A stretch of 36,237 nucleotides of DNA from a virus, in IMG/VR virus record IMGVR_UViG_3300008258_000010, positions 1 to 36,237 of that record; one strand, 5' to 3'. A program made the translations under genes and the position numbers. This document shows, in pieces, positions 1,600 to 25,729 of this stretch. The stretch's first letter is position 1; the number at the start of each line of letters is the position of its first letter. The notes beneath the pieces were generated by a model, which was not told the DNA's origin, did no database searches, and saw only the letters and a program-made list of their open reading frames with translations.

Positions 1600-1634
1600 T
1601 ATAATCACGACCTTTCAATAATCGTATTAGATTT

Positions 1635-10200: not shown

Positions 10201-11112
10201 CGGTATGTAGGATAGTGGGTCAAGGATTAGACCACCAACAAAGTTTCCAAAAAACTGTGTTGCTACATTTCCTGGTGTCCATCCAGAACCAGTAATAGGT
10301 CTACCAGATGAATCTAACTTTAGAGTTCCATCAGGATTGTATTCTGCACCAGTAACGGTTGCTCTTTGTCCTACTGAGAATGGGTCAAACTGAAGTTCTG
10401 AAAAACTGATACCCCAGTTTTTAGACATCCATGAAAAAGTTTGTATTGCCTCTTGGTTAGATTTTTGTTTTTCCCAAGTGCCAGAAATGTTTATCGCTCC
10501 GCCAGATACTCCAGCAACCACTGCGTCTGCTAATAATGCTGTTGTCTGACCTACACCATAGGTAAGTGCTGTTCCTAAATCAGCATGTGGCTTTTCTCTT
10601 TCTTCAAGAAAGCCCTCATTATTAAAAATCATGCTAGTAGCCCATGGGTCAGTCCATGACTTTTCTAGTTGCCTACCTAACCATGCGTTTTGTTCGTCCC
10701 AAGAGAACTCAGGTCCAGCATCAACCAAGTGGCGAACTGCCTGAGCACCTGTTCCTAGAGTAAAGAGTAAAGATGTTCCTAGACGAAGGGGTATAGATAA
10801 AATGTCTCCAACAGCACCCCAGAAATCCTGACCTTCTGCTGGAGTGGTAGGTGTGTATTTATAGCCTCTCTGAAATCCTTTAGGAAATGAAGGTGCAGGA
10901 GAGGGTGTAGGAGAAGGTGTAGAAGAAGGTGTAGAAGAAGTTGGCTTTAGGTTGTTCCTTCTTTCATCAGAAGAAATACGAAGAGCACTGCCATTACCAG
11001 AAGCCTTAACATCAACACCAGAGTTCGCTTTATCAATAGCAGAAATCCCAGTATTGTATTTTGTAAAAGTATTTAGCCTGTCGCTCCAAGCACCGTAGTC
11101 ATTAGCACTCAT
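4240..11112 (-). CDS. Giant (2,290 aa) virion protein, probably internal/ejected
   Basis: It is the largest gene of the window, about 19% of its length. Its ATG overlaps the TAA of the preceding gene by one base. Position between portal and scaffold/capsid, size, and lack of tail-tube or tape-measure neighbours suggest an internal virion or DNA-ejection protein of a short-tailed phage. A Pro/Ser/Thr-rich linker at residues 57-76 is followed by hydrophobic segments near 98-123 and 180-205; more hydrophobic stretches occur mid-protein ('SIGALFQSIVLFRAG') and later ('AAIVPFGNAFLFSMKSLV'), which could insert into the host envelope. The C-terminal 400 residues are rich in Trp, Tyr and Asn. I do not see T7- or N4-type RNA polymerase motifs, nor a clear transglycosylase or M23 site. 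It could also act like a tape measure. Confidence 0.65.
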   Translation of the reverse strand: MSANDYGAWSDRLNTFTKYNTGISAIDKANSGVDVKASGNGSALRISSDERRNNLKPTSSTPSSTPSPTPSPAPSFPKGFQRGYKYTPTTPAEGQDFWGAVGDILSIPLRLGTSLLFTLGTGAQAVRHLVDAGPEFSWDEQNAWLGRQLEKSWTDPWATSMIFNNEGFLEEREKPHADLGTALTYGVGQTTALLADAVVAGVSGGAINISGTWEKQKSNQEAIQTFSWMSKNWGISFSELQFDPFSVGQRATVTGAEYNPDGTLKLDSSGRPITGSGWTPGNVATQFFGNFVGGLILDPLSYIPLSWLGKVGKVLFSGRFLTGVGEKTVAKNIATDMSEWAGIAGLADSGVNASGRYITKEAAEAAAEQKLRYWNFAKFAAENNADVISQHTVVKSITSGEKENIAWLLGQAKTEQEVAQIILATEYGSQRAFQSLVSKQPNMKLALDEFMDGGYLARGERNGSITTIGMLDSLDHPEFLKSVIEASDLLAKDEFSTVLSNLIVKAGPEGLAGNTVIRELMPSRFGFINKFEGGKAKVGSFFVHGKTHDGSIRVERSFGNGTSFLYHQVVRPFQTSAKGMIDLEDPLGDASRKFFGMLGDIDRLSGSALSNGGYRVALSNAWRTATTPDAKAMVIQNAQELGLTLIATKQGFNKETAGALSSILMEKKRVFTENLQRDGVVVMKEGNQKIVYNDPFMVNQTPNKINIWDFAKVRDEIIKAKPQILADSPIKYNAARAGVIFKNGTVSFYNSIGALFQSIVLFRAGRTARDMFQNGVSSMLSGYGGAMAKNAINPALLLNAVENNASRAIAREMRMNLALRGYARPEKIEQSIKALDDLNIALLEQEGIRLRKIVQDVANQKISDIPYDDIPRFLASAHELSAASHYHVTTDKQAFLDLNVGAKEFSTRGIATFDNQDDALNYINKLGTDINTAKASDSLTLPDTVGKRITKDVRTKVETAIANGEIIHVRLAGRGRKWQLLDTKKFRSQTDADIAKYEIRVVSPKDAGGMTKADLLAAIDRGDSVWASRAGEKYKPLTRPEVEQMTDVSSLSGKIFAKGQIPKIVELRSYGKEIHLGSIKDLPEELAIKLGIKTQKQLDAWIASKGYDNLGFSDLVAMSKYKAARFTVTQDGKTISILNPFAADASGKEVNEALVIAVIRDLEEAGVDWTGMSFLAGQATLRDKLVAQGWMTARKGAKPIRADELSQMTVGQLTDAGMFSRSLINRLGKNAKAKLDELETSTLPINAKLANLYGVGDNELLPAILAVKQSLTNNIAQMEVLQQSLIKSRATWDKINAIKANRKHFETDGTIRVGQEDFAQSLAGIEGDIFLGKLAKSVEDVRLRDSLWKPMDAQLVTRVVKPTEVGYWDSWANVLNRNFMHDGKLDPVVRLIIEKRIAGVYDEDDLVLAVKEWLKTTEGKKYADAVGVGKKYSVVGPGTEQFIRPDKVRFEQLSAEDFAVMNIRNVDNHVGPIAADAPFLTIEEAQKYINDLRRMGVDVGDITTERITAEQWLDEMAVSQNLIATKLLKGEEISPTELQAYHLGRKAEGEQVGELIANVDMSTRYGAIGLPDIWASIADPSQRTLTQRLGREALNKWNKAITDYPQQVFFQMPMFHVAYRESLERQMIQKATARGIGIDDVRVTEAERLNIVRNARQYALNQTKKWIYSYTDGMEIRQALAAIVPFGNAFLFSMKSLVNGARYNPASAALMIYWANKLNNNTHWVDKNGNPVGFDERDENGERKAAYVQASLPEWFTNSLAGGEVKQILFNRQSLDPVFQGNYADIGDTPIAIPNPLQSFSLMPIPTIALSELVKSEAKQGGKGPATTFTEWANRVLPFGPSSTQWSWDLLMPGNTAKQLWDSPKWWNEEGQGIWTRSYLNSVQYVNGQYLLGKYPEIDSLPSQAQKDKALLQKAKDYTGAIFWLKAFSDFVSPVATTYITPGDIARKAYKSNQDKAQAEFDSYGTTYDERLKVWESKYGRGYTVKDMALYNTMYENEEWWAASISPTFNQYGIEYNTDSLTRLERNKGLIKSVQDYGTVVGMNDGDIRDVLSWIVNDGRRNPGAAFDENSYAALQSDYLNPRTPTEYSTYIRIQRGWYAYNNGYTIPTASGQGEKLPGIKWLQNNLMNPTANPSDTAEIKPFYYQGRYISGTYGYWKNKLTNALYNDKQFGAVWQSDKKKAIDPNKYNDLAGVWQSIIWNGYGSDGKPLSGNTKVETQLDRDIATFLIARYNRQKELRERGQLTGRGTLAQNPDIKDAWYNDLEPLLNGSNPDFEDWYYNFRWNEDSLN
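10892..10939. repeat. Four 12-bp tandem repeats in the giant gene
   Basis: Units are GGTGCAGGAGAG, GGTGTAGGAGAA, GGTGTAGAAGAA and GGTGTAGAAGAA. On the minus strand they encode the STPSSTPSPTPSPAPS linker of the giant protein. The unit is a whole number of codons, so copy-number change would keep the frame and only alter linker length. Confidence 0.85.
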
Positions 11113-13564: not shown

Positions 13565-15424
13565 TTAGAATCCGCTCCCCCAGTAACTACGAACATAAAC
13601 AGCATCTTGTGAACCAACAATGGCTCTATCTTGCATGTCCTGTCTAGTCATAAAGGGACTATTACGGAAATAGTTTTTTCTTTCAGCCCTTGAAACTAAC
13701 TCAAGAGCCCTAAGTTCTGCGAACCAAAGAGCCATAACAATGTCTGTCTTGATGCCCTTTGGTGGGTTTGGTTGCCAAGTAACTAACTGTTCAATCAGCG
13801 ACTTGACACGCTGAATGTCAGACCTAGGTAGTGTAATCATGTTCTGAGAAAACAAAGTGCTCATAGCCATTACACCAAAGTTAGGGTCGTGCTTGTTATT
13901 GTTTGTCATGTGTTCAGTTAGCATTACTCCTCGTGAAGCCAGATACTCATTTATTTCTGGGTCACGAGTAAGGAATGTTTGGAAAGCGTTTCTTTCGATA
14001 CGCCATTCCTTGATACCGTAGCGGTCAGTCCAGTCTCTAATCAGAGCCTTTGTTTCCTCTGGTTTAGAACCAGCACGGTTACTTATGTCAATGACATGTC
14101 TTTTACCTGTCTGTAAATCTACTCCTAATACCACCGCAGCAGTGTAGCCAGTAGAAGCAGGGTCAAGACCAGCAAGAATGTAGAGTCCATCCATACCACC
14201 ATCTCTTCCGAGATTCTCGTCATCTGGAATGTCTCCTGTCTGTCTTGCTTGGCAAGCACGAGACACATGCTCAGGGTCAAACACAGAGTCCTGTGCTACC
14301 TGTTCCTGTTGATAAATACGACTCCATAGTGCAGGAGCAATACCATCACGCAAATCTTTTAGCGTTTCGCCATCCCAGCGTCTGTATAAACCATTTGCAT
14401 CTGGTTCTTCGTCTGGGTCAGCAGGGGCATCGCTATACGCCCACAGTGTTTTCCAGTTCTTAGGGTCATCATCGAACTCTAGAACTGCTGGTTGTAGCAA
14501 GTAAGTCCAAGGCTGTGCTTGTCCATAGTATCTATCTGGGTTACGCAACTCAGAATACAAATCCTTAGCAGCGATACGAGTTCCAACAACAAGCAAGCGA
14601 CCTGTTCTTGGAGCAAGACGAGAGCCTACGATACCTAGTAGCCAGTCAATCTGCTTCTCATACTCACCAACATTTGTATTATCAATAGCGTCATCCACAA
14701 CAATCAAATCTGCACGAGCACCATAGACCTGACCACGAATACCAACAGCCTGAACTGTAGGGTCCTTCGCTTCAGCAGACCTACCTGAAATGTAGAACTG
14801 ACTTTGCTTCCAAGAAGCAGAACCTTCCTGCCATCCACCTGGAGGACCAAAAGTTTCTTGCAGTTTGCTGTATTGAGGATTAGTTAAACGCTCTTTAATC
14901 TGTAGCAAGAACTGCTCAGACAAACGCTGTGCCTTAGATACAACAATAACCTTCAAGTCTGGGTTCTTCATAATCCGCCAAATCACATAGTTCACCGTGA
15001 TAGTTGTGGACTTAGCGTGACCTGGAGGAGTATTGATAATAAGCCTTGAAGGTCTACCCTCTTCATAAGTCATCGCTGGATGCAGTTCTCTAGGAGGTCT
15101 ACCCTCAAGCATGTCAAACCATTGAAGTTGGTGTGGAAACAGTTTGTTCCCTAAATACACTTCACAAAACTCAGGAAAATCTGGAACAGGAATCTCGTCA
15201 TAGAGACCATTCTTTTTATCTTTAAGAACGCCCCTGATACGAGTAATCTCGTCAGCGAACTCTCTGTCACGCTTACGCCATTCCTCATAGGTTCGAACTG
15301 AACGACCAATCTGAGCAAGACCATCCCTAATAGACATACCCTGATAGAGCAGTTTCTTAAGTTCCGCCTTGGCTTCAGTGGCGTTCAGTTTCGCACCAGC
15401 ACCAGTTTTCTTGTAGTTAGCCAA
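13565..15424 (-). CDS. terL: Terminase large subunit, with an N-terminal HTH-like domain
   Basis: This is the ATP-driven motor and nuclease that packages DNA into the procapsid; it has 619 aa. The ATPase shows Walker A PPGHAKST (133-140) and Walker B LIVVDD (240-245). The RNase H-like nuclease begins with 'LAGLDPASTGYTAAVVLGVD', the first catalytic Asp being in GLDPAS; 'WRIERNAFQ' and 'KTDIVMALWFAEL' supply later acidic residues. Residues about 15-65 (a helical stretch with 'LLYQGMSIRDGLAQIGRSVR' and 'TYEEWRKRDREFADEI') look like a helix-turn-helix of the kind normally found in small terminase subunits, so this protein may carry its own DNA-recognition domain. No separate small terminase is recognisable. 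The start codon is TTG, with TAGGGA upstream; no ATG fits better. Confidence 0.93.
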   Translation of the reverse strand: MANYKKTGAGAKLNATEAKAELKKLLYQGMSIRDGLAQIGRSVRTYEEWRKRDREFADEITRIRGVLKDKKNGLYDEIPVPDFPEFCEVYLGNKLFPHQLQWFDMLEGRPPRELHPAMTYEEGRPSRLIINTPPGHAKSTTITVNYVIWRIMKNPDLKVIVVSKAQRLSEQFLLQIKERLTNPQYSKLQETFGPPGGWQEGSASWKQSQFYISGRSAEAKDPTVQAVGIRGQVYGARADLIVVDDAIDNTNVGEYEKQIDWLLGIVGSRLAPRTGRLLVVGTRIAAKDLYSELRNPDRYYGQAQPWTYLLQPAVLEFDDDPKNWKTLWAYSDAPADPDEEPDANGLYRRWDGETLKDLRDGIAPALWSRIYQQEQVAQDSVFDPEHVSRACQARQTGDIPDDENLGRDGGMDGLYILAGLDPASTGYTAAVVLGVDLQTGKRHVIDISNRAGSKPEETKALIRDWTDRYGIKEWRIERNAFQTFLTRDPEINEYLASRGVMLTEHMTNNNKHDPNFGVMAMSTLFSQNMITLPRSDIQRVKSLIEQLVTWQPNPPKGIKTDIVMALWFAELRALELVSRAERKNYFRNSPFMTRQDMQDRAIVGSQDAVYVRSYWGSGF

Positions 15425-17107: not shown

Positions 17108-17122
17108 AAGGCTATTTTACCA
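17108..17122 (-). promoter_or_regulatory. Extended -10 promoter, leaderless start of the 64-aa gene
   Basis: On the minus strand TGG then TAAAAT (17122-17114) fits the TGnTATAAT extended -10. Only AGCCTT separates it from the ATG, so the predicted +1 is the A of ATG. No convincing -35 is visible (ATTTCT at the 17-bp position). Confidence 0.55.
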
Positions 17123-17157
17123 GTTTGGATTGCGGTAGAAATGTTTGTTCATAACCA

Positions 17158-17196
17158 TTTGACATCTGACTCCGATTTAATAATCGGGGGGTCAAA
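17158..17196. repeat. Nested inverted repeat at the edge of the intergenic region
   Basis: CCGATT (17172-17177) pairs with AATCGG (17182-17187) around a TAAT loop, and the outer arms TTTGAC (17158-17163) and GTCAAA (17191-17196) also pair. TTGACA at 17159-17164 would be a perfect plus-strand -35, but no good -10 follows. It could be an operator or a terminator-like stem without a U-tract. Confidence 0.5.
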
Positions 17197-17262
17197 CAAC
17201 TTAGCCACGCCTACAGGTTTATTAGCGAGACACCGTAACTATTTATCTGTGGGGTGTCAGCC

Positions 17263-17358
17263 ATGTATGTATTTTTTGCAGTAGCGTTTATTACTTTTAC
17301 TATGGCTACCGTGGCTACCTTACCTGCGTCTACCACTGATGATAATGATTCTCAATAA
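17263..17358 (+). CDS. Putative 31-aa membrane micro-protein
   Basis: The frame starts MYVFFAVAFITFTMATVATL and ends in an acidic, polar tail (STTDDNDSQ). Residues 2-20 would form one transmembrane or signal-like helix. GGGGTG lies 7-8 bases before the ATG. It is the only plausible plus-strand ORF in the 1.25-kb gap and sits 50 bp before the iterons. With no family recognised, it may be a chance ORF. Confidence 0.35.
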   Translation: MYVFFAVAFITFTMATVATLPASTTDDNDSQ

Positions 17359-17404
17359 GGCTTGGGCGTTCTATGTTTACCCTGACCAAATAGGCGATAG
17401 CCCT

Positions 17405-17725
17405 AAAAAACTAACCTAAAGTTAGGTCTAGGTTAGGTGTCAGTTAGGTTTTCAACGAGGCTACATCCCTTATGTTTACTGGGATTTTTGCTTTTCAGTT
17501 AGTAAAGTTAGTGTTTTCCCAAGTCATCTATAGTGTCTACTACTATATTTTTATTTCCTAACTCTATAAGAAAAAGACTAACAATACTAACTTTAGAGGC
17601 TACTTCCCTTTGTTTATAAGGCATTCAGAGGAGGTAAAAACCTAACTTGGACCTAACTTGATACTAACTTTGACCTCAAAAAACTAACTTATCCACAGGT
17701 TTATCCACAGGCTGTGTATAACTAT
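17405..17725. other. Putative DnaA-dependent replication origin
   Basis: Three perfect DnaA boxes (TTATNCACA) occur within 33 bp: TTATCCACA at 17689-17697 and 17701-17709, and TGTGTATAA (reverse of TTATACACA) at 17713-17721. They directly follow the iteron array. An AT-rich stretch (about 17521-17580, with TACTATATTTTTATTTCC) lies between the iteron halves and would suit a DNA-unwinding element. The combination is the textbook layout of plasmid and chromosomal origins. It sits in the divergent gap between early and late genes. The phage-encoded partner would be the PrimPol-helicase; host DnaA would bind the boxes. Confidence 0.75.
17410..17688. repeat. Iteron array of the putative origin (14 hexamers)
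   Basis: GTTAGG or GTTAGT occurs forward at 17421, 17432, 17443 (11-bp period), 17498 and 17507 (9-bp period). The reverse form (CCTAAC or ACTAAC) occurs at 17410, 17557, 17577 and 17586 (9-bp period), 17641, 17652 and 17663 (11-bp period), and 17683. A near-copy of GAGGCTACATCCCTTATGTT lies on each side (17457-17478 and 17596-17616). The halves therefore form a mirrored arrangement: 3 sites, block, 2 sites, AT-rich centre, 2 sites, block, 3 sites. The 11-bp period puts sites on one face of the helix, typical of initiator binding sites. Counting the partial palindromic site at 17414-17419 gives 14. Confidence 0.75.
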
Positions 17726-18105
17726 AGGGGCGTTTACGATAACGAATCAAACAAATACCCTGGCTATGTGGCTACATCTACCACCGCACACAGTTGAATA
17801 AAAGAGTTTATAAAGGCTATGAAACCATTTGGTTAGCATTGTTAGGGTTTTGCTGGCTTATGCGTTGATTTGGAGGATAATGTGAGTGTCCACAGTAGCC
17901 AAACAATCTATCAGCCATCCATCTAATGTTCCATTGCCAGGATACTAGCAGTAGCCAAACATCTAATGAAGCCTTATCAAATCTCTATAATAACTATCTG
18001 TTCAAACAAAGATAACCAGCCTTAGCCCTTTATTCTTCTAGTGTTTATACCTCTATGTGTTCTTCTATTTACTTCTTCTATACCCTGCCTTTCTCTGAGT
18101 ATCTA
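17722..18105. other. Non-coding stretch between origin and early promoters
   Basis: No credible gene is seen on either strand. It contains the direct repeat at 17893-17968 and pyrimidine-rich runs (for example TCTTCTATTTACTTCTTCT near 18061). A GTGTCCACAG partial DnaA-like site occurs near 17887. I see nothing else that I can support. Confidence 0.5.
17893..17968. repeat. Direct repeat, second copy without a 15-bp insert
   Basis: CAGTAGCCAAACA occurs at 17893-17905 and 17949-17961. It is followed by ATCTAATG in both copies (17921-17928, 17961-17968), with 15 extra bases in the first copy. It may bind a protein or be a slippage product; no function can be assigned. Confidence 0.6.
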
Positions 18106-18132
18106 AGGGGGAGACCCCCTCAAACCCCCCTT
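18105..18132. repeat. G/C hairpin with two competing 3' arms
   Basis: AGGGGG (18106-18111) pairs with CCCCCT (18115-18120) over an AGA loop, or AAGGGGG (18105-18111) pairs with CCCCCTT (18126-18132). There is no U-tract downstream. It could be a termination or pause signal upstream of the early promoters, or a boundary of the origin. Confidence 0.5.
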
Positions 18133-18253
18133 CTACTTGGGCGTTCTTAGGATAGCCCTACATCTTGTGTCTGTGGTGTGCTGTTACCACTAGATGTTGT
18201 GGTTCTTACCTTACCGATGTGGCTTCTAATAACAAATAAAGATGTTCCGTGTG

Positions 18254-18339
18254 TGGTAGAATAGTTCTTGTGAGTTCATTAGTTTATGGAGATTTTTTCA
18301 TAAACGGTGCTTATAATAATAGTGTAGGAAAATCCTACA
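18254..18339 (+). promoter_or_regulatory. Early promoter region with palindromic operator
   Basis: There are two tandem candidate promoters: an extended -10 TGG-TAGAAT (18254-18262), and TATAAT (18312-18317). Between them lies a perfect inverted repeat GTTTATG/CATAAAC (18282-18288, 18299-18305, 10-base spacer) that covers the -35 position of the second. A second hairpin, TGTAGGA/TCCTACA with an AAA loop (18323-18339), follows, then GGAAGAGG and the first early ATG (18353). No TTGACA-like -35 is seen. The palindrome looks like a repressor or activator site, but no regulator gene is recognised in the window. Confidence 0.6.
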
Positions 18340-18352
18340 GGAAGAGGTTCAA

Positions 18353-18688
18353 ATGAACGATAAACCAGAAGACCGTATTCTTGACCCGAATGACGGTGAA
18401 GCAGCAATAGATGCAGCAAGGGAGTTCTTGGAAAGAGAATACACTGTGTCAGGTGATACCCCTACAGCATCTACTACCCCAACCATTGAGACTACAGACC
18501 TACCAGATAATGCTACTCAGGTAGTTACTGTTGGAGAACTAAAAGAACTCTTGGACTACGCATTTAGGCAAGGTTTGATGCGAGGATTTGCTGAAGCACT
18601 AGAAGCAGTAGAAGCCAAGATTACAGAAGACCCAGAGATTACAGAAGACATCAAGGAGTATCTAAACACCTTGTTAGGAGGTTTGTAA
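18353..18688 (+). CDS. First early gene, acidic 111-aa protein of unknown function
   Basis: It has a strong Shine-Dalgarno (GGAAGAGG). The protein is acidic: residues 1-30 contain 'DPNDGEAAIDAAREFLEREY', the middle is a Thr/Pro-rich linker (GDTPTASTTPTIETTDLPD), and the C-terminal half is helical ('VGELKELLDYAFRQGLMRGF', 'AEALEAVEAKI'). I recognise no family. Being the first gene of the early operon, it may target the host or regulate expression, but the sequence does not show this. Its stop overlaps the next start by one base. Confidence 0.65.
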   Translation: MNDKPEDRILDPNDGEAAIDAAREFLEREYTVSGDTPTASTTPTIETTDLPDNATQVVTVGELKELLDYAFRQGLMRGFAEALEAVEAKITEDPEITEDIKEYLNTLLGGL

Positions 18689-18816
18689 TGGAAGCGATAG
18701 CAGTATTACTGGTGTCTGTAGCCAATCTTGTTACCGTGCTTTATGCACTGGCACTACAGAAGAGATTACAGAAGACCGAAGACCAACTAAACCGCCTAGA
18801 AAGACGAGTGGGCTAA
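18688..18816 (+). CDS. Small membrane protein with cytoplasmic helix (42 aa)
   Basis: It is too short for most callers but well supported: AGGAGG Shine-Dalgarno 7 bases upstream, and one-base overlaps at both ends (TAATG). The peptide MEAIAVLLVSVANLVTVLYA is one transmembrane helix, followed by a charged helical tail (LQKRLQKTEDQLNRLERRVG) likely to form a coiled coil. Such one-TM/coiled-coil mini-proteins are frequent in phages, some as holin or antiholin-like, but an early-operon position argues against lysis. Confidence 0.65.
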   Translation: MEAIAVLLVSVANLVTVLYALALQKRLQKTEDQLNRLERRVG

Positions 18817-18899
18817 TGAACTTCTTACTCAGGGCAGTCCACGATAACCCAACTGTGATAGATGGGCTGCTCTGGGTAGGGACTAAGGAGAAACTATGA
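18816..18899 (+). CDS. 27-aa early micro-protein
   Basis: The frame starts MNFLLRAVHDNPTVIDGLLW and ends VGTKEKL. The ATG overlaps the preceding TAA by one base and the TGA overlaps the next gene's start (ATGA), so it fills exactly the space between two coupled genes. That fit argues for translation, perhaps only as a bridge for coupling. Function unknown. Confidence 0.45.
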   Translation: MNFLLRAVHDNPTVIDGLLWVGTKEKL

Positions 18900-19327
18900 A
18901 CACATACGCAATAGTAGTTCACGATGACTTAGAGGTAGATACCTTGAGAGTTGAGAACATAGACAGTAAAGACCAGAGAGTTGGCATACACAACATTGCT
19001 GACTGGTTAGGCACTACTGAAATAGGAAGGTATGAGTTCAGCCCTGATTTGAGTATGTGGTTTGCGAATAGTGAAGCACCGCTCAATCTTGTTGGCACTG
19101 GCTTTCTTGGTAATCGTAAATGTATCTATGGTCCTATTGTTATTACAACTTGGGAACGCAGAGGCATTGATTCTGAGGGTGTTCCAGAGAGCCAACTACC
19201 ATACACTTGGTCAATCATAGAAGAGACAATCACTTATGCCAAGATGTATGCAGACACACATGACCTTACCATTGACCAACTAAAACATCAGGTTGAGGAA
19301 GGTATTTTAGGAGACAAAAATGACTAA
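18896..19327 (+). CDS. Hypothetical early protein (143 aa), DUF3846-like
   Basis: ATG with AAGGAG at 6-base spacing. Two segments, 'DLSMWFANSEAPLNLVGTGF' and 'CIYGPIVITT', resemble the DUF3846 pattern (small acidic proteins in phages and plasmids: ..mwvde.g...N..At.....i.GpvvvT). The match is by eye and moderate. DUF3846 has no known biochemical role. The C-terminus is a helical 'DTHDLTIDQLKHQVEEGIL' tail. Start and stop overlap both neighbours (4 and 8 bp). Confidence 0.6.
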   Translation: MNTYAIVVHDDLEVDTLRVENIDSKDQRVGIHNIADWLGTTEIGRYEFSPDLSMWFANSEAPLNLVGTGFLGNRKCIYGPIVITTWERRGIDSEGVPESQLPYTWSIIEETITYAKMYADTHDLTIDQLKHQVEEGILGDKND

Positions 19328-19640
19328 AGCACAATACAGAAAGACTTGGGAAGCCAAGTTGCTAGCCGAAGGCAAGGTATGTGAGAAGCATTCTGATAGA
19401 CCAAAGACTACTAAGCATGGTTGTTATGGTTGCTATCATTCATACCGCTGGCATAACGACCCTGAGTTTAAAGCCAGACGGAACGCTAGACATAAAGAGT
19501 ATGTAGGCAATAACCGCCAACGCATCAATGCAATCGCCAAGAAATGGAGAGATGCAAACCCTGAGAAACACAGGGACAATGTAAAGAAATCAATAGCCAA
19601 ACGCAAAGAGCGTGAAGCGGAAAGAGGTACCAATGAGTAA
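19320..19640 (+). CDS. Basic protein with Cys/His cluster (106 aa)
   Basis: A possible zinc site lies at residues 21-40: CEKHSDRPKTTKHGCYGCYH (C21, H24, C35, C38, H40). It is followed by a strongly basic helical tail with 'KARRNARHKEYVGNNRQRIN' and 'KKWRDANPEKHRDNVKKSIA'. The tail resembles the basic linker found in front of phage endonuclease VII and HNH domains, but no nuclease core follows. It is therefore a zinc-binding, DNA- or RNA-binding protein candidate, or a decayed nuclease. It overlaps the 143-aa gene by 8 bp and the next by 8 bp. Confidence 0.6.
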   Translation: MTKAQYRKTWEAKLLAEGKVCEKHSDRPKTTKHGCYGCYHSYRWHNDPEFKARRNARHKEYVGNNRQRINAIAKKWRDANPEKHRDNVKKSIAKRKEREAERGTNE

Positions 19641-20061
19641 CGAAGAAAACCTAGAGCCAGTAGTAGAAGAAACCACTGAGCCTACAGAAGAGCAAGCACA
19701 GGAAGAGTTTGACCCTGATGCCCCAACGATGTCTGCTAGACAGATGTCTTACCTTCTAACCAATCAGACCTTTGCGTTCTGTGCCAGCATTGGACAGGCG
19801 TTAAAGGATAGGTACGACCAGATGACAACCAATGTTCCACCAAAGGTTAAGAAGTCTGAATACAACAAGGGCTACCTGACTGCCCTTAATGATGTCGCTG
19901 CTGGATTGATGGCATACCAGAACGAGGTAACTCTTCGTGCTGTTGCTGATGGAATCCTAACTCCTGAAGATGCAGCACAGTTCCTACCAACATTCCCAAC
20001 AAGTCCAGTGCCTGTTGAGGAAGAGCAACCTGCTCCCGAAGTAGATGGGCAGAGTGAATAG
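19633..20061 (+). CDS. Acidic early protein (142 aa), function unknown
   Basis: I chose the ATG at 19633 because GAAAGAGG lies 5 bases upstream; the frame could begin 21 bp earlier. The N-terminus is very acidic (EENLEPVVEETTEPTEEQAQ), the centre is a folded helical block ('SARQMSYLLTNQTFAFCASI', 'YNKGYLTALNDVAAGLMAYQ') and the C-terminus is Pro/Glu-rich. The acidic ends suggest DNA mimicry or an SSB-like tail, but no OB-fold motif is seen and the idea is speculative. It overlaps the next gene by 17 bp. Confidence 0.6.
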   Translation: MSNEENLEPVVEETTEPTEEQAQEEFDPDAPTMSARQMSYLLTNQTFAFCASIGQALKDRYDQMTTNVPPKVKKSEYNKGYLTALNDVAAGLMAYQNEVTLRAVADGILTPEDAAQFLPTFPTSPVPVEEEQPAPEVDGQSE

Positions 20062-20728
20062 CCCCTATGAAAGGAGAATCACACGGACACAAGGATACAG
20101 AGACAACGCTTGGAAAGAAGAGAAGTCCAAAGCAGTTTTCAAATCCTTTACGGAACACTACCAACTGCACTTCACGGAAATCACAGACAAAAAAACTCAG
20201 ATTGAACTAGGAGATTATAGAAATGGCACAGACAGATACATCGAATGTAAAAGCCAGAACATTGGTGCTTACCAAAGCAACTTCATTGAGGTTGGTGAAT
20301 ACGATACAGGTAATCCTATCCACAGTGGTGGGCATTCTCTTACTAGCGAATGGCTATCTAGCAATGGGGTTGACCTTTATGAGTGCAACATTCGTGAACG
20401 CTTTAATACAAAGGCGACACAAAAGTTTGGGAATCCTGACACTTACAATCCAGGTATTACTCCTCTTGTGCGTGGGGCTGATGTCTTTTACATCAATCGG
20501 GATACAGAACTAATCTACTTCTATAAAGCAGAGACACTAAAGGCTCTGATACTAGAAGAGATAAGGCAAGACAGACTGTTCTGGGGTGGTGGTCGTAGTA
20601 ACGAAACCACTATCGCAGTGTTTGTCAAGAACTCCGAAGCCAGATGGCAGAAAGTCAAAGGCGAATGGCGGTTCATAGGTAATGACCCAACGATTGAACA
20701 ACAAGTTTGGGATTACCTGAAAGGATAG
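20045..20728 (+). CDS. PD-(D/E)XK-like nuclease (227 aa)
   Basis: Residues 53-69 read IELGDYRNGTDRYIECK: an upstream acidic residue (D57 or D63), then E67-x-K69 in a hydrophobic strand, preceded by E54. This is the arrangement of the PD-(D/E)XK nuclease core. A Q70/Q71-like neighbour (KSQ) also fits. Later parts ('LVRGADVFYINRDTELIYFY') look like a beta-sheet continuation. Possible roles are a Holliday-junction resolvase, recombination nuclease or host-DNA degradation; the sequence does not distinguish. Start is uncertain: ATG 20045 has a poor Shine-Dalgarno, and GTG 20054 is an alternative. Confidence 0.6.
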   Translation: MGRVNSPYERRITRTQGYRDNAWKEEKSKAVFKSFTEHYQLHFTEITDKKTQIELGDYRNGTDRYIECKSQNIGAYQSNFIEVGEYDTGNPIHSGGHSLTSEWLSSNGVDLYECNIRERFNTKATQKFGNPDTYNPGITPLVRGADVFYINRDTELIYFYKAETLKALILEEIRQDRLFWGGGRSNETTIAVFVKNSEARWQKVKGEWRFIGNDPTIEQQVWDYLKG

Positions 20729-20730
20729 AA

Positions 20731-21315
20731 ATGCTTGGACAAGAAGAGATAAGCATCTGCGAAAAGGTAGGTAAATACTACGCAAGCAGATGGAAAGTTG
20801 TAGAACGAGATGACCTCGTAAGCCACCTAATACTTTGGTGTGCAGAGAGAGATACTACTACGCTACAAAGATGGCGTGACGAAGGAAGTCTTAGTCCTAA
20901 GTTATACAAGTCATTGAAGAGAGAAGCAGCACACTACTGCGAGAAAGAAACAAGTATAAAGGTGGGAAGAGATTTACATGCTAATAACTCTTACACCTTG
21001 GACATCATAAAAAATACGCTACCCTTTGTGTTCAGCCAACCAGATGTTGAAGACCCAATCAACTCAACAGCATTGCAAATCATTGCAGATGTATCGTCTG
21101 CTTTGTATGGTCTATCAACTGACGATGTTCAAATCATTACTATGAGATACCAAAACGAAATGACACACGAAGACATAGGGAAATACTACGGAGTTAACAC
21201 AGACACTGCCAGCCAGAAGTTACACAGGGCTCTTGAGAGATTGCTCACTAAACTTTCTGGCGTGGCTTTGTTTGATTGGTCTGATGTAGGAAGTGGGGGT
21301 AGTGACGATGACTGA
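20731..21315 (+). CDS. RNA polymerase sigma-70-like factor (194 aa)
   Basis: Residues about 127-176 ('LSTDDVQIITMRYQNEMTHE', then 'DIGKYYGVNTDTASQKLHRA') have the layout of sigma-70 region 4: a first helix ending MRY, the HTH 'HEDIGKYYGV', and a recognition helix followed by the basic 'LHRALERLLTKL'. Residues 26-70 ('DDLVSHLILWCAERDTTTLQ', 'KSLKREAAHYC') resemble a reduced region 2. The size fits ECF-type or phage sigma factors. It may direct host RNA polymerase to the three phage-specific late elements, whose GGAA-type -35 is reminiscent of ECF promoters; this link is inference. Start: ATG 20731 with AAAGGAT; the frame extends back to a TTG at 20707 that would overlap the nuclease gene. Confidence 0.65.
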   Translation: MLGQEEISICEKVGKYYASRWKVVERDDLVSHLILWCAERDTTTLQRWRDEGSLSPKLYKSLKREAAHYCEKETSIKVGRDLHANNSYTLDIIKNTLPFVFSQPDVEDPINSTALQIIADVSSALYGLSTDDVQIITMRYQNEMTHEDIGKYYGVNTDTASQKLHRALERLLTKLSGVALFDWSDVGSGGSDDD

Positions 21316-21424
21316 ACCAATACACACAGAGGTATGGTGGTGTGAAGAGCACGGTATCTCTACTCATTGTTGCTGTCAAGAAGCCAAGAACATTGGTTGG
21401 TGGGATACATTCAATGTCAAATAA
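21308..21424 (+). CDS. Small Cys/His protein, putative zinc-binding (38 aa)
   Basis: The peptide contains C12, H15, H20 and C21-C22-C23 ('WWCEEHG' then 'HCCCQEAKNIGWWD'), enough ligands for one zinc. It overlaps the sigma-like gene by 8 bp (GATGACTGA) and the next gene by 11 bp, the compact arrangement typical of this operon. It starts MTEPIHTEVWWCEEHGISTH. Similar short 'C..HG' proteins occur in actinophages; function unknown. Confidence 0.55.
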   Translation: MTEPIHTEVWWCEEHGISTHCCCQEAKNIGWWDTFNVK

Positions 21425-21578
21425 AAGACAACAGGCAAGACAAAAGGCTGAGGGTCACTGGCTCTTTGAACTTCTAACCAAGCAGGGGTTCAAGACTGGT
21501 GACCATCAGAACAAGAAGGACAAGCGAACAAGGACTCGTCAAGCCAAGAAGACTAAAGCAATCAAAGACTTTGATTAA
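21414..21578 (+). CDS. Basic mini-protein (54 aa)
   Basis: From ATG 21414 the sequence starts MSNKRQQARQKAEGHWLFEL, then carries 'LTKQGFKTGDHQNKKDKRTR' and ends in KKTKAIKDFD. An in-frame upstream ATG at 21342 would overlap the 38-aa gene almost completely and is unlikely. The protein is Lys/Arg-rich and probably binds nucleic acid. A C5TG/CAG5 hairpin begins 7 bp after the stop. Confidence 0.5.
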   Translation: MSNKRQQARQKAEGHWLFELLTKQGFKTGDHQNKKDKRTRTRQAKKTKAIKDFD

Positions 21579-21585
21579 CAAGAAA

Positions 21586-21610
21586 CCCCCTGCACAGCAG
21601 CAACAGGGGG
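21586..21610 (+). terminator. GC hairpin after the mini-protein gene
   Basis: CCCCCTG (21586-21592) pairs perfectly with CAGGGGG (21604-21610) around an 11-base loop. It is not followed by a U-tract, so it may be a pause site, mRNA end protector or attenuator between the sigma-like cluster and the genes downstream. A weaker CTCTG/CAGAG stem follows at 21626-21643. Confidence 0.5.
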
Positions 21611-21660
21611 AATCTCGGAGCACTTCTCTGGGACCAGACAGAGTGGCTCTAGGAGGAGCA

Positions 21661-21771
21661 ATGAGTTATACAACCCACACTTATTATTTTACATCAATCC
21701 AGAAAAGTTTATTTGAGTTTAGTGAGACAAGAGTTTCTTTTGGTGTCATCATAGTTCTAGGGAGGACCTAA
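21661..21771 (+). CDS. 36-aa micro-protein with strong Shine-Dalgarno
   Basis: AGGAGGAGC directly precedes the ATG with good spacing, the main support for this ORF. The peptide starts MSYTTHTYYFTSIQKSLFEF and ends 'VSFGVIIVLGRT', short, hydrophobic and aromatic-rich, without a clear TM span. It stops 14 bp before the next gene. Function unknown. Confidence 0.45.
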   Translation: MSYTTHTYYFTSIQKSLFEFSETRVSFGVIIVLGRT

Positions 21772-21785
21772 CCAAAGGAGTAGTT

Positions 21786-22073
21786 ATGAAACTATCAGCA
21801 GAGAATGCAGCAAAACTAAATAAGAGATACAACGGAAGAGCGATTACCTTCACACAGAATGGTAGATACAAGGGTGCTATCCACGGATACCTGCTTGTCG
21901 TATCGGAGTCAGGCTTCGTCTACTATGACGAGGACTGGTGTCGTGAGTTCTTCCAAGACTGGGACACCTTCGGTGGTTTCAGGCACATCTCAGAGAATAA
22001 GTCATCGCTTTACAGGCACTACAGCAAGGATAGAAGCGGTAGATTTACTGAGAAGTCTGAGAAAAACCTGTGA
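21786..22073 (+). CDS. Hypothetical early protein (95 aa)
   Basis: AAAGGAG lies 6 bases before the ATG. The protein starts MKLSAENAAKLNKRYNGRAI, has a small beta-rich middle ('HGYLLVVSESGFVYYDEDWC') and a polar, basic C-terminus ('HYSKDRSGRFTEKSEKNL'). Layout suggests a small SH3-like or beta-barrel fold, but I recognise no family. It is the last gene before a 120-bp gap that probably holds a new promoter. Confidence 0.6.
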   Translation: MKLSAENAAKLNKRYNGRAITFTQNGRYKGAIHGYLLVVSESGFVYYDEDWCREFFQDWDTFGGFRHISENKSSLYRHYSKDRSGRFTEKSEKNL

Positions 22074-22111
22074 GTTTAGGCTTAGAACAGTAAGATTTAT
22101 TATAAAACCTA

Positions 22112-22149
22112 CCAGTTTACCAAACACTGGATAAATAGTATGGTATCAT
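22112..22149 (+). promoter_or_regulatory. Candidate promoter upstream of the HNH gene
   Basis: An extended -10, TGG-TATCAT (22141-22149), is of the same TGGTANNAT form as at 17114 (reverse) and 18254. An alternative pair is TTTACC (22116-22121) and TATGGT (22139-22144) with 17-bp spacing. CCAGT/ACTGG arms (22112-22116, 22126-22130) form an operator-like inverted repeat over the upstream part. Confidence 0.45.
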
Positions 22150-22194
22150 TAGTATAGTCAGACAATAGACCACTGACTAGGAAGAAGAAATAAA

Positions 22195-22566
22195 ATGACC
22201 GCAACAAACAAACAGCGTAAACCACGCACAGTAGTTCCACTGAAAGAACGCATCCTAAGAATGAGTTCATGGGACATGAAGACAGGTTGCTATGTATGGC
22301 AGGGTTCGTTCCGTCCTGGAACTGGATACCCTCAAATGTCTAGCAACGACCGAAACGCACAGGGCAAATACAAAATCGTATTCGCTCACCGTGTTGCATA
22401 CCAAGAGTGGGTAGGACCATTGGAAGCAGAGATGACCATTGACCACCTATGTGGAAACACTAAGTGTGTAAACTATAAGCACCTAGAACAAGTTACTAGA
22501 GCGGAGAACATCCGTAGGTTCTGGGAGAACAAGAGAAAACTAGCAGCACAAAACACAGCCCAATAG
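22195..22566 (+). CDS. HNH endonuclease (homing-type, 123 aa)
   Basis: The core is clear: 'FAHRVAYQEWVGPLEAEMTI' followed by DHLCGNTKCVNYKHLEQVT. Catalytic and metal residues are H65 in AHR, D83-H84 (DH), N93 and H96, with C86 and C91 as the zinc pair. The flanking 'GPLEAEMTIDHLC.N..C.N..HLE.VT..EN' is the HNH_3 pattern of free-standing homing endonucleases and of phage DNA-cleaving enzymes near packaging or replication genes. It may be a selfish insertion or may serve DNA processing. Shine-Dalgarno: GGAAGAAG. The gene is flanked by gaps of about 120 and 80 bp, unlike its overlapping neighbours, which fits a mobile gene. Confidence 0.85.
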   Translation: MTATNKQRKPRTVVPLKERILRMSSWDMKTGCYVWQGSFRPGTGYPQMSSNDRNAQGKYKIVFAHRVAYQEWVGPLEAEMTIDHLCGNTKCVNYKHLEQVTRAENIRRFWENKRKLAAQNTAQ

Positions 22567-22600
22567 ATTTGTGCTACCATTACATTAGCAACAAAGAAGT

Positions 22601-22617
22601 CCAAGCAGAGTGCTTGG
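22601..22617 (+). other. Small hairpin between HNH gene and next gene
   Basis: CCAAGC (22601-22606) pairs with GCTTGG (22612-22617) across AGAGT. There is no U-tract. It lies in the 80-bp gap before the 164-aa gene and may mark an mRNA end or a leader. Confidence 0.35.
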
Positions 22618-22646
22618 CATAGATACAGATAAGGTGGTTATAAACC

Positions 22647-23141
22647 ATGGAAAAACAAACAGAAGCAGTTTGGCACGAACCAGAATCGGCAGAGCCAACT
22701 ACAACAGCACCAATCGTTGGATTCGTTCCAGAGTTCAACAGCATGTGGGAGTATTCTCGTGATGGGAAACTACGCACACTAAACTCAGGTCAGTATTTGA
22801 CTTCAGAATCTTACAAACAGATTCGTAAAATCATGTCATCAATCAGCAAGACCAGAACTCTATACATCACGCTGAAGAGTGGCAAAACATTCAAGACAGA
22901 AGACTATGACCTAACTCGTCATGGTATCTATTCATTCCGTTCATACCCAACACAAACAAGACAACTGTCATGGGAAGAGTTGGAGAACTACAAACAAACC
23001 TACGACTACTCAACGCTCTATCCATTCTCGGACATTAAGTGCATCATCGCCCAAGTTGGTGGAACAGTTCTGTTCAATGGTGGCAAGGTAGTCTATACAC
23101 CAAGTGCTATCCCAACTATCAGCAAAGGTGAGGATAACTAA
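22647..23141 (+). CDS. Hypothetical protein upstream of PrimPol-helicase (164 aa)
   Basis: Shine-Dalgarno AAGGTGG. The N-terminus is polar (EKQTEAVWHEPESAEPTTTA), followed by a beta-rich region with 'KTRTLYITLKSGKTFKTEDY' and 'CIIAQVGGTVLFNGGKVVYT'. I recognise no family. Its TAA overlaps the ATG of the PrimPol-helicase by one base (TAATG), so the two are probably co-translated; a replication accessory (initiator or DNA-binding) role is possible but only inferred from position. Confidence 0.6.
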   Translation: MEKQTEAVWHEPESAEPTTTAPIVGFVPEFNSMWEYSRDGKLRTLNSGQYLTSESYKQIRKIMSSISKTRTLYITLKSGKTFKTEDYDLTRHGIYSFRSYPTQTRQLSWEELENYKQTYDYSTLYPFSDIKCIIAQVGGTVLFNGGKVVYTPSAIPTISKGEDN

Positions 23142-25411
23142 TGACTAACCAAACTCCAATGCAAATCGCTCGTGAAAGAGCACTAGCACTAAACAAACTT
23201 GGACTAGCAATCGTTCCATTGACACCAGCAGAAAAGGTAGTTAATGGAAAGTTGAAGACACGCAAGTCTCCAATGACTAGCCAAGACTCACCACTGGTAA
23301 CTCCAATCCAAATCACTTCATACTGGCACGATGGTCGCCAAGATGGTGTGCCACTAATCGGAATCGTATCTGGTTCTTGTAAGACCCCAATGGTCTTTCT
23401 TGACATTGATGTTCATACAAACTCTAATGGCTATGTCACTCTTGATAATGCAGGTTTAGAGATTCCTGAGACTACCGTTCGCTATCAGAGTGAGTCAGGT
23501 AATGGGGAACACCTATGGTTCAAGGTTCCAGAAGAAGCACAGGGTCTAGACCTTACTGCTCGTGGTGGTATCTTCTACAATGGCAATCGTCTTAGTGGTG
23601 TTGATAACCGTGTAGGTAATGGTTACATTCACTTCCCAGACAACGCTCCAATCCCAACCGAAGAAGAGTTGGTTGCTTTACCAGATGCCCCAGAGTGGAT
23701 TTGGAAAACATCTATTCGCAACGAGGTATCAGAAGAAACAGCGTTTGAAGGTAAGCCATCTGTATGGATGGATAACTTGCAAGCAACCACTGAAGGTCCA
23801 TACGCATTTGGTGTTGAGACTGCACTACGCAATGTAATGTCTGACATCATGCAGGGTAACGACATCTCTTACGACACTATGCGTGATACTCAATACGCTT
23901 TAGTTCGTGAGGGTGCTAAAGGTTCTTCTGGTTCTTATCAGGCAATCAAGTTTCTTGAGAGCCAGTATCTTCGTTCACCTTACAACACTGTAGAGTTCCA
24001 GACTAAATGGACTAATGCTCTAGAGAATGCAATCCGTAAGTTCGGAACAGCAGAAGTTGAGCAAGAGTCTGGCAACCCACTTGCTAAATACTTTGAGGTG
24101 ACTGGTAAGAAAAGCGTATTCAAAGCACACACATTTGCTAAAGACCTAGCAGAGAACACAGCCATTGATAAGGCTGGTGCTTACTGGTCTTATGTTGATG
24201 GTGTCTGGGTATACAACCCAAGTGTTCACACAACTACTCTGTCTGACATGCTTGAAGAACGCTACATGAAGAACTATGAAACTCTAGTGAATGACCACCT
24301 TAAGTCAATCCTTACACTGGAAAGAAAGTTCATCACAGATAATCCAGACGAGCACCTTATCAACCTGAAGAATGGTATGTATAACTGGAAGACAGGACAC
24401 ATCCTGCCACATGACCAGTCTTACATGAGCACTGTTCAGTTGAACATCTCGTATGACCCATCTGCTACCTGCCCTAACTTTGACAAGTGGCTAAGTGAAG
24501 TCCTACCTGGTGACGAACAACTTGGTTTGGAAATCATTGGCTACATGTTTATGTCTGGCAACCCAATGCACATTGTTCCATTGCTAGTTGGTTCAGGTCG
24601 TAATGGTAAGAGCACATTCTTGCGTGTGATTCAGCACGGTATTGGCGAAGAGAACTACTCTTCTAAAGACCTGCACTCACTAAGCACAGATAAGTTCGCA
24701 CCTGTTGCCTTGTTCGGTAAGTTAGCAAACATCAATGCTGACATCCACCAACGCCACCTTACTAACTCTGGAACGCTAAAGCAGATTACTGGTGGAGACT
24801 CAATCCAAGGTGAGCGTAAGGGTCAAGACTCTTTCACATTCAAACCTTGGGCTACCCTGTTGTTCTCAACTAACGAACTATGGTCATCGTCAGATACATC
24901 GGATGCATACTTTGAGCGTTGGCAACCAGTTCCATTCCTACAGAAGTTTACTGCTGGTAAGTTTGACGAGAACATTCTCTTCAACGAAATCAATGGTATC
25001 TTCAACAGGGCTATGGTTGCTTTGCGTGGACTGCGTGAGCGTAATGCTTTCACCAAGTCAACTGAAGTTCTAAAGTTGGAGCGTGAGTTCTTGCTTTCAT
25101 CTGACCCAGTTCAGCAGTGGCTAGAAGATAGTGACTATGTAACTGTCGCTGACCCTGCAAACACTATTGTAAAGACCAAGAAAACAGATGCGTTTGTTTC
25201 TTATCGTGATTACCGTAAGGGTAAGAGCAATGGTCTTGACCGTAAGAAGTTCTACGAATCTCTGGAAAAGAAGGGCTATGCAGTCGTTCGTCCAGGAAAT
25301 GTTGAGCACTTCATTGGAATCGAAGTTCGCCCTATTGGATTAATGGGTGAACCAGACTACAACAGTTATTCAAGTGACAGTATGACTATCAAGGAGTACA
25401 ACAACTTCTAA
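23141..25411 (+). CDS. Primase-polymerase / SF3 (D5-like) helicase
   Basis: The 756-aa fusion starts replication forks. Residues 10-190 form a bifunctional primase/polymerase (PrimPol) domain with the catalytic pair D88-x-D90 (FLDID) and H124 (GNGEHLWF). Residues about 340-450 resemble the D5 N-terminal domain ('YWSYVDGVWVYNP', 'FITDNPDEHLINLKNGMYNW'). The SF3 helicase has Walker A GSGRNGKST (484-492), a short Walker B around 'NINADI' (530-535), sensor 1 'LLFSTNEL' with N578, and a likely arginine finger in 'AYFERW' (R593). No other replication polymerase is visible in the window, so this protein plus host Pol III would replicate the phage from the iteron/DnaA-box origin. The gene ends the early operon, just before a strong terminator. 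Confidence 0.9.
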   Translation: MTNQTPMQIARERALALNKLGLAIVPLTPAEKVVNGKLKTRKSPMTSQDSPLVTPIQITSYWHDGRQDGVPLIGIVSGSCKTPMVFLDIDVHTNSNGYVTLDNAGLEIPETTVRYQSESGNGEHLWFKVPEEAQGLDLTARGGIFYNGNRLSGVDNRVGNGYIHFPDNAPIPTEEELVALPDAPEWIWKTSIRNEVSEETAFEGKPSVWMDNLQATTEGPYAFGVETALRNVMSDIMQGNDISYDTMRDTQYALVREGAKGSSGSYQAIKFLESQYLRSPYNTVEFQTKWTNALENAIRKFGTAEVEQESGNPLAKYFEVTGKKSVFKAHTFAKDLAENTAIDKAGAYWSYVDGVWVYNPSVHTTTLSDMLEERYMKNYETLVNDHLKSILTLERKFITDNPDEHLINLKNGMYNWKTGHILPHDQSYMSTVQLNISYDPSATCPNFDKWLSEVLPGDEQLGLEIIGYMFMSGNPMHIVPLLVGSGRNGKSTFLRVIQHGIGEENYSSKDLHSLSTDKFAPVALFGKLANINADIHQRHLTNSGTLKQITGGDSIQGERKGQDSFTFKPWATLLFSTNELWSSSDTSDAYFERWQPVPFLQKFTAGKFDENILFNEINGIFNRAMVALRGLRERNAFTKSTEVLKLEREFLLSSDPVQQWLEDSDYVTVADPANTIVKTKKTDAFVSYRDYRKGKSNGLDRKKFYESLEKKGYAVVRPGNVEHFIGIEVRPIGLMGEPDYNSYSSDSMTIKEYNNF

Positions 25412-25442
25412 GTTTTATCCGAACACCTCCTGGATAAAAAGG

Positions 25443-25476
25443 AACCGCCTAGTTTACTGACATTTTCTAGGCGGTT
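25443..25476. terminator. Bidirectional terminator between early and late blocks
   Basis: AACCGCCTAG (25443-25452) pairs perfectly with CTAGGCGGTT (25467-25476), loop 14 bases. On the plus side TTCGCTTTATTCGGTTTT follows; on the minus side CCTTTTTATCC follows. The two operons converge here, so one hairpin stops both the replication transcript and the tail/lysis transcript. Confidence 0.9.
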
Positions 25477-25491
25477 TCGCTTTATTCGGTT

Positions 25492-25563
25492 TTAGTCTTT
25501 ACATGTTTTGCATGTACAGTCTCTGCAATCTTGGTTACAGTCACAGCAGTAGCACTCATTCAT
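25492..25563 (-). CDS. 23-aa micro-protein with 8 cysteines
   Basis: The peptide contains 'ECYCCDCNQDCRDCTCKTC' (positions 3-21): cysteines at 4, 6, 7, 9, 13, 16, 18 and 21, more than a third of the residues. Spacing resembles metallothionein-like CxC and CCxC clusters and would bind several metal ions. AAAGGA lies 8 bases before the ATG, which overlaps the stop of the 57-aa gene by 8 bp, and the terminator begins 16 bp after the stop. These support real expression. It is the last gene of the late transcript. Function unknown. Confidence 0.6.
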   Translation of the reverse strand: MNECYCCDCNQDCRDCTCKTCKD

Positions 25564-25729
25564 CGCCATCGTCCTTTCTTAGAGGGTATGTAGCAATCCA
25601 TAATGTTGTTGTGCCGATGATACACCAGCCAACCACATCTCTGGCAGAACCTTCTAATACCAGCCAAGCCACGAACATTCCGAGTAGCGTCCATGCCTGA
25701 CCAATCAGGTCATTGAGGAACTTTTTCAT
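25556..25729 (-). CDS. Two-TM mini-protein, holin candidate (57 aa)
   Basis: It starts MKKFLNDLIGQAWTLLGMFV, then 'AWLVLEG', a short loop (SARD) and 'VVGWCIIGTTTLWIATYPL', ending in a charged RKDDGDE. Two transmembrane segments, a tight loop and charged ends are typical of class II holins. The ATG overlaps the stop of the PA14 protein gene (TAATGA). The M23 enzyme is far away, so this would be a split lysis module; a role as spanin-like or envelope protein cannot be excluded. Confidence 0.65.
   Translation of the reverse strand: MKKFLNDLIGQAWTLLGMFVAWLVLEGSARDVVGWCIIGTTTLWIATYPLRKDDGDE

Follow-up and report, generated by a model that had tools for sequence, protein, structure and literature searches.

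Plasmid origins of the Rep_3 type (e.g., oriR of P1) combine direct-repeat iterons, bound by Rep_3 initiators, with an AT-rich stretch and DnaA boxes. Origins resembling the one described below may have been reported earlier in phages, for instance in those of Streptococcus thermophilus. In the satellite P4, ori1 lies where the early and late genes diverge and has short iterons of the GGTGAACAG type on both strands, spaced by 10 to 11 bp. Its initiator, alpha, belongs to the P4 primase family; the alpha gene is part of the early operon, several kb downstream of ori1, and has a further cis region, crr, on its 3′ side. Alpha binds the repeats of the origin through a winged helix (PMC4234260). 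The origins of PICIs always comprise two iteron sets around an AT-rich region, just 3′ of rep (PMC6092414). SaPI Rep proteins recognize the origin via their C-terminal domain, and Rep apparently binds the iterons as two hexamers (PMC7581432). Lastly, the origins of extrachromosomal mycobacteriophages are RepA or RNA based and linked to parABS, and no repeated motifs have been identified in them (PMC7157519).

The DNA analyzed here (the window) is a complete IMG/VR virus record of 36,237 bases, from a freshwater bacterial virus classed as linear. As it carries genes for a large terminase subunit, a major capsid protein and an M23 peptidase, along with further virion genes (Pfam, PHROG), it represents a phage and not a satellite. 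Its nearest terminase relatives are IMG/VR contigs (85 to 89% identity), and remoter ones are Streptomyces phages (46%), which makes an actinobacterial host likely. No tyrosine integrase was found in the record. Up to 16.7 kb and again beyond 25.7 kb, the genes point leftward, and a rightward early operon occupies 18.35 to 25.4 kb between them (ORF lists). The region at 17405-17725, in the gap between the divergent late and early genes, had been described as a plasmid-like replication origin in an earlier note made from the sequence alone. We consider it likely that this non-satellite tailed phage starts replication here, at an origin of the P4/PICI kind, and origin function is the best explanation for its features, which are as follows.

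586-1608, minus strand: major capsid protein gene (PF13252 and phrog_1357).
13565-15424, minus strand: terminase large subunit gene (phrog_38, E = 4e-74).
17108-18352, no strand: non-coding gap of about 1.2 kb between leftward late and rightward early genes (ORF lists), containing the putative origin.
17405-17725, no strand: proposed replication origin, with mirrored iterons, blocks, AT-rich center and DnaA boxes.
17410-17415, minus strand: iteron GTTAGT, outside the dyad.
17421-17448, plus strand: outer left iterons, three copies of GTTAGG with an 11-bp period (17421, 17432, 17443).
17457-17483, plus strand: left block, GAGGCTACATCCCTTATGTTTACTGGG, with a core that is exact in the relative L001 and in unrelated phages.
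17498-17512, plus strand: inner left iterons, two copies of GTTAGT with a 9-bp period (17498, 17507).
17513-17576, no strand: AT-rich center and candidate melting site, with the axis of the dyad at 17544.5.
17557-17562, minus strand: extra iteron inside the AT-rich center, outside the dyad.
17577-17591, minus strand: inner right iterons, two copies of GTTAGT with a 9-bp period (17577, 17586).
17596-17622, plus strand: right block, GAGGCTACTTCCCTTTGTTTATAAGGC, symmetric to the left block.
17641-17668, minus strand: outer right iterons with an 11-bp period (17641, 17652, 17663).
17683-17688, minus strand: iteron GTTAGT, directly adjoining the DnaA boxes and not part of the dyad.
17689-17697, plus strand: DnaA box, TTATCCACA.
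17701-17709, plus strand: DnaA box, TTATCCACA.
17713-17721, minus strand: DnaA box, TTATACACA.
18353-25411, plus strand: early operon, read away from the putative origin (111-aa protein, 227-aa protein, sigma-70-like factor, HNH endonuclease, primase-helicase).
23141-25411, plus strand: gene of the candidate initiator, a primase-helicase with Prim-Pol, D5_N and SF3 (DUF5906) domains (Pfam).

All 13 exact GTTAGK hexamers counted in the earlier note were located, within 279 bp (17410-17688). The expectation is 42 for the whole 36 kb, i.e., about 0.33 for 279 bp, giving a Poisson tail of about 1e-16. The mirror symmetry of the 11-bp and 9-bp periods proved to be base exact for 10 of the 13 hexamers. 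Those at 17421, 17432, 17443, 17498 and 17507 on the plus strand are mirrored by those at 17663, 17652, 17641, 17586 and 17577 on the minus strand, start and end adding up to 35089 for every pair (axis at 17544.5), and 55 bp separates the outer from the inner set on the left and right alike. The near-duplicate blocks seen on each side obey the same dyad, as the centers of their 17-bp versions CCCTTATGTTTACTGGG (17467-17483) and CCCTTTGTTTATAAGGC (17606-17622) give the same sum. The middle of the dyad, already described as AT rich, is the most AT-rich stretch (78% AT, 40-bp windows). The 11-bp hexamer triplet has no other occurrence and did not appear in 100 shuffles, and a de novo scan for mirrored 6-mer arrays ranked the site first in the window with a score of 14.8, the best of 60 shuffles reaching 7.7. 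The array was also found in three further contigs of the same virus (L082, L089 and L090). An Rfam search gave no match above threshold.

The earlier note had suggested that a cumulative GC skew minimum near 17.5 kb would support an origin. The minimum is at 18136 (GC and AT skew minima at 18136 and 18298, respectively), but we dropped it as evidence because the skew at fourfold sites follows gene orientation wherever the gene lies (+0.355 for the left minus-strand genes, −0.178 for the plus-strand genes and +0.29 for the right minus-strand genes).

The gap and the divergent gene order around it are common to two related contigs, L001 and L005. Searches with the 227-aa protein, the sigma-like factor and primase alignments found the early module in four contigs only. 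The best relative with a complete origin is L001 (contig L085; terminase 89% identical), whose gap contains neither a GTTAG array nor a DnaA box. We found there an array of 12 copies of AAGTGA (scan score, 20.4), and its inner triplets at 5558, 5569 and 5578 (plus strand) and at 5652, 5660 and 5671 (minus strand) share the dyad of the blocks within 1 bp. In the gap of L005 (contig L084), the array is weaker and built of a third word, CGGAA, and the blocks are missing. It thus appears that in at least two of these three related viruses, the window included, the iteron word was replaced and the design kept. Relatives with the same genes but without the boxes or iterons had been named as evidence that would speak against an origin; the exact words are indeed absent from them, but the architecture is retained with another word. 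The AAGTGA iteron of L001 (L085:5440-5762) includes AAGTG, which has been reported as the iteron of the SCCmec helicase Cch2 (PMC7581432); the resemblance is probably coincidental.

We performed a blind scan for mirrored k-mer arrays on 18 annotated phage loci with homologous helicases, using 78 terminase-centered loci (0.92 Mb) as controls. Strict matches were obtained for 5 of the 18 helicase loci, compared with 0 of the 78 controls (Fisher p = 1.4e-4), and under the same settings the other 13 phages gave no match. The five arrays were found in Lactobacillus phage CL2 (GTGACG), Mycobacterium phage Cheetobro (GGGACAT), Gordonia phage GMA4 (GGGTGC), Pseudanabaena phage Pan4 (GGGAAGA) and Streptomyces phage phiSAJS1 (CGCGGGA). 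Each phage has its own iteron word, and each array is in the non-coding gap that immediately adjoins the primase gene; in CL2, Pan4, Cheetobro and GMA4, it lies 3′ of that gene between co-directional genes. A sixth match, in Proteus phage RS10pmA (TGAAAC), was obtained with looser settings only and is 3 kb away. P4 ori1 was the best 6-mer match of the scan, only when the scan was relaxed to two copies per side.

The putative origin is probably opened by the phage's own helicase. The 756-aa primase-helicase that closes the early operon is the sole replication protein recognized in the record. It belongs to the P4 family (TIGR01613, 169.1 bits for a cutoff of 108.7), and its profile matched PDB entry 7ola (named "DNA primase"), which we take to be Rep of SaPI5, over nearly the full length (residues 70 to 707; E = 2e-30). 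Identity between the window and L085 proteins is 72% in the SF3 core, 49% in the Prim-Pol domain, 41% in the C-terminal region and 39% in the linker. The low C-terminal identity is in line with an altered iteron specificity, even though other parts diverge too, and we suggest that the C-terminal region is a putative iteron-binding domain. AlphaFold models (pLDDT of 41 for the whole protein and 48 for the C terminus) were too poor to call a DNA-binding domain, and a Foldseek search with the low-confidence C-terminal model gave no usable match.

A natural mechanism would be the loading of two helicase rings in opposite orientations over a melted center. The P4-family primase-helicase would bind the mirrored hexamers, its C-terminal domain being the part most likely to contact them, and the oppositely oriented half-arrays would set two rings head to head across the AT-rich center, which would melt between them. 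Moving outward, the rings would unwind the DNA and lay down primers on both strands. Extension of these primers would fall to the host replicase, which we propose because the record yielded no gene for a family A DNA polymerase. The array geometry resembles that of viral origins where two SF3 helicase rings assemble. The origin reading is supported by the position of the region, its dyad and AT-rich center, the layout conserved in a relative, and the similar arrays beside primase genes of unrelated phages. Counting against it are the distance of 5.4 kb from the array to the downstream helicase gene, the 13 surveyed phages without a strict match, the weakness of the L005 array and the lack of boxes in the relatives.

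The three TTATNCACA DnaA boxes reported earlier are present within 33 bp, directly after the iteron array. They are absent from the origin regions of the near relatives L001 and L005, and DnaA is therefore not a core part of the module. In GMA4, the only two DnaA boxes of an 11.2-kb locus (L110:6585-6593 and 6891-6899) are both located at the mirrored GGGTGC array, which makes this phage an independent case of iterons with DnaA boxes. Of the role for host DnaA put forward in the earlier note, the boxes themselves hold up, and a core function does not: DnaA would be at most an accessory factor, and probably is one. The boxes at one end of the array may let host DnaA assist, as an extra of the window virus that its near relatives lack.

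The region shares with P4 ori1 its position in the early/late divergence, short iterons on both strands with similar spacing and a predicted initiator of the P4 primase family encoded several kb downstream. It differs by its iteron, its near-perfect dyad, the DnaA boxes, a Prim-Pol-type primase domain and the virion genes of the phage, P4 being a satellite. No GTTAG was found in 25412-25730, where a crr-like second array 3′ of the primase gene was looked for, so that the locus departs from a P4 origin in the strict sense. Iteron sets on both sides of an AT-rich region and a (primase-)helicase initiator are also found in PICIs and SaPIs (PMC6092414; PMC7581432). The PICI origin is immediately 3′ of rep, whereas the primase-helicase gene here lies 5.4 kb downstream of the putative origin, and the window has virion genes, of which PICIs, being satellites, lack a full set; the locus is thus not a PICI origin in the strict sense, nor is the element a PICI. 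With Rep_3 plasmid origins it has in common iterons, an AT-rich stretch and DnaA boxes (17689-17721; not conserved in relatives). Its iterons are mirrored, however, and no Rep_3 initiator gene (PF01051) was found in the record. "Plasmid-like" is therefore not apt in the Rep_3 sense; the candidate initiator is of the P4 family, and the nearest known origins are those of P4 and PICIs. Extrachromosomal mycobacteriophages likewise have actinobacterial phage replicons (PMC7157519; the host of the window virus being only likely), but unlike those parABS-linked plasmid prophages, the window has no ParB gene (no PF02195 match in the record).

A different early protein could bind the iterons. It is unlikely, though deserving of consideration, that the region is an origin whose iterons are bound by the sigma-like factor (20707-21315) or a small early protein, with the helicase recruited later, or whose true initiator is host DnaA. 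The sigma-like factor has a helix-turn-helix, but that motif is nearly unchanged and the protein 71 to 82% identical in the relatives, even though two of them have unrelated iterons, and arrays elsewhere accompany a P4-type primase gene. For DnaA, the boxes abut the array, and the only two of the GMA4 locus are at its array too, yet L001 and L005 have none.

We regard it as improbable that the array is an operator, on whose hexamers a phage regulator would switch early and late transcription. It does lie between divergent transcription units, and one inverted pair can form a terminator-like hairpin (minus strand, 17436-17411). However, over 600 bp separate the array from the first early start codon, and in CL2, Pan4, Cheetobro and GMA4, arrays with this layout are 3′ of the primase gene between co-directional genes. 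A base-exact dyad with an AT-rich center and adjoining DnaA boxes would also be unexpected for operators. Even less probable is a role in partition, as a centromere, or in packaging, as a pac/cos site. Iterated sites make up centromeres and cos regions too, and the terminase gene is 2 kb away, but the record has no ParB gene, and in other phages such arrays accompany the primase gene, none of the 78 terminase-centered loci having one. Chance or low-complexity repetition is hardly credible despite short hexamers and several word sizes tried, given the density probability of about 1e-16, shuffled scans at or below 7.7 versus 14.8, and the layout kept in L001.

If the region is an origin of the P4/PICI kind, the array provides a base-exact candidate for the start of replication in phages with a P4-family primase-helicase and without a recognized DNA polymerase of their own, and Cheetobro, GMA4 and CL2 offer culturable proxies. 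The findings argue against the published idea that only PICIs have two-sided iteron origins. Each iteron word with its matching helicase C terminus would be one member of a natural specificity series. More tentatively, and with somewhat more doubt than confidence, we propose that mirrored-iteron origins with P4-family primase-helicases form a widespread class in ordinary tailed phages rather than a mark of satellites, in which the iteron word and the helicase C terminus change together around a fixed dyad. Some actinophages, including the window phage and GMA4, might have joined DnaA boxes to it, yielding a doubly controlled origin.

Other features of the window were noted. Two non-coding stretches, 17131-17200 and 18090-18150, are kept in L001 and L005 (GCGGTAGAAATGTTT, TAATAATCGGGGGGTCAA), with a G-run/C-run inverted repeat near AAGGGGGAGACCCCC among them; promoters or RNA structures are possible. 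In the early operon, the 111-aa protein has no assigned role, and the 227-aa protein (20045-20728), 65 to 76% identical in relatives and without family match, looks nuclease-like by eye. The sigma-70-like factor (TIGR02937, 50.5 bits; 71 to 82% identity in relatives) possibly drives late transcription. A late protein of 2,290 aa (4240-11112) had no confident family match and a weak Mu-type helix-turn-helix match at residues 2059-2111.

A short-motif BLAST search with the block yielded no plasmid match and phage matches at chance level only. A 23-nt element, CTACANCCCTTATRWWWACTGGG, present in the window at 17461-17483, recurs nearly letter perfect in non-coding DNA of unrelated phages. Further copies are at L085:5521-5543, L087:6385-6407, L124:9496-9518, L125:255-277, L127:490-512, L128:2545-2567 and L129:7147-7169. 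A CAGGGC array beside the block in L087, a phage without a P4-family primase, was rejected as too weak (score, 8.8). The L128 copy adjoins a phage-type integrase gene, and a single Clostridium symbiosum MAG has the element in two of its scaffolds. A short hairpin with changed stem pairs can form in some of the copies.
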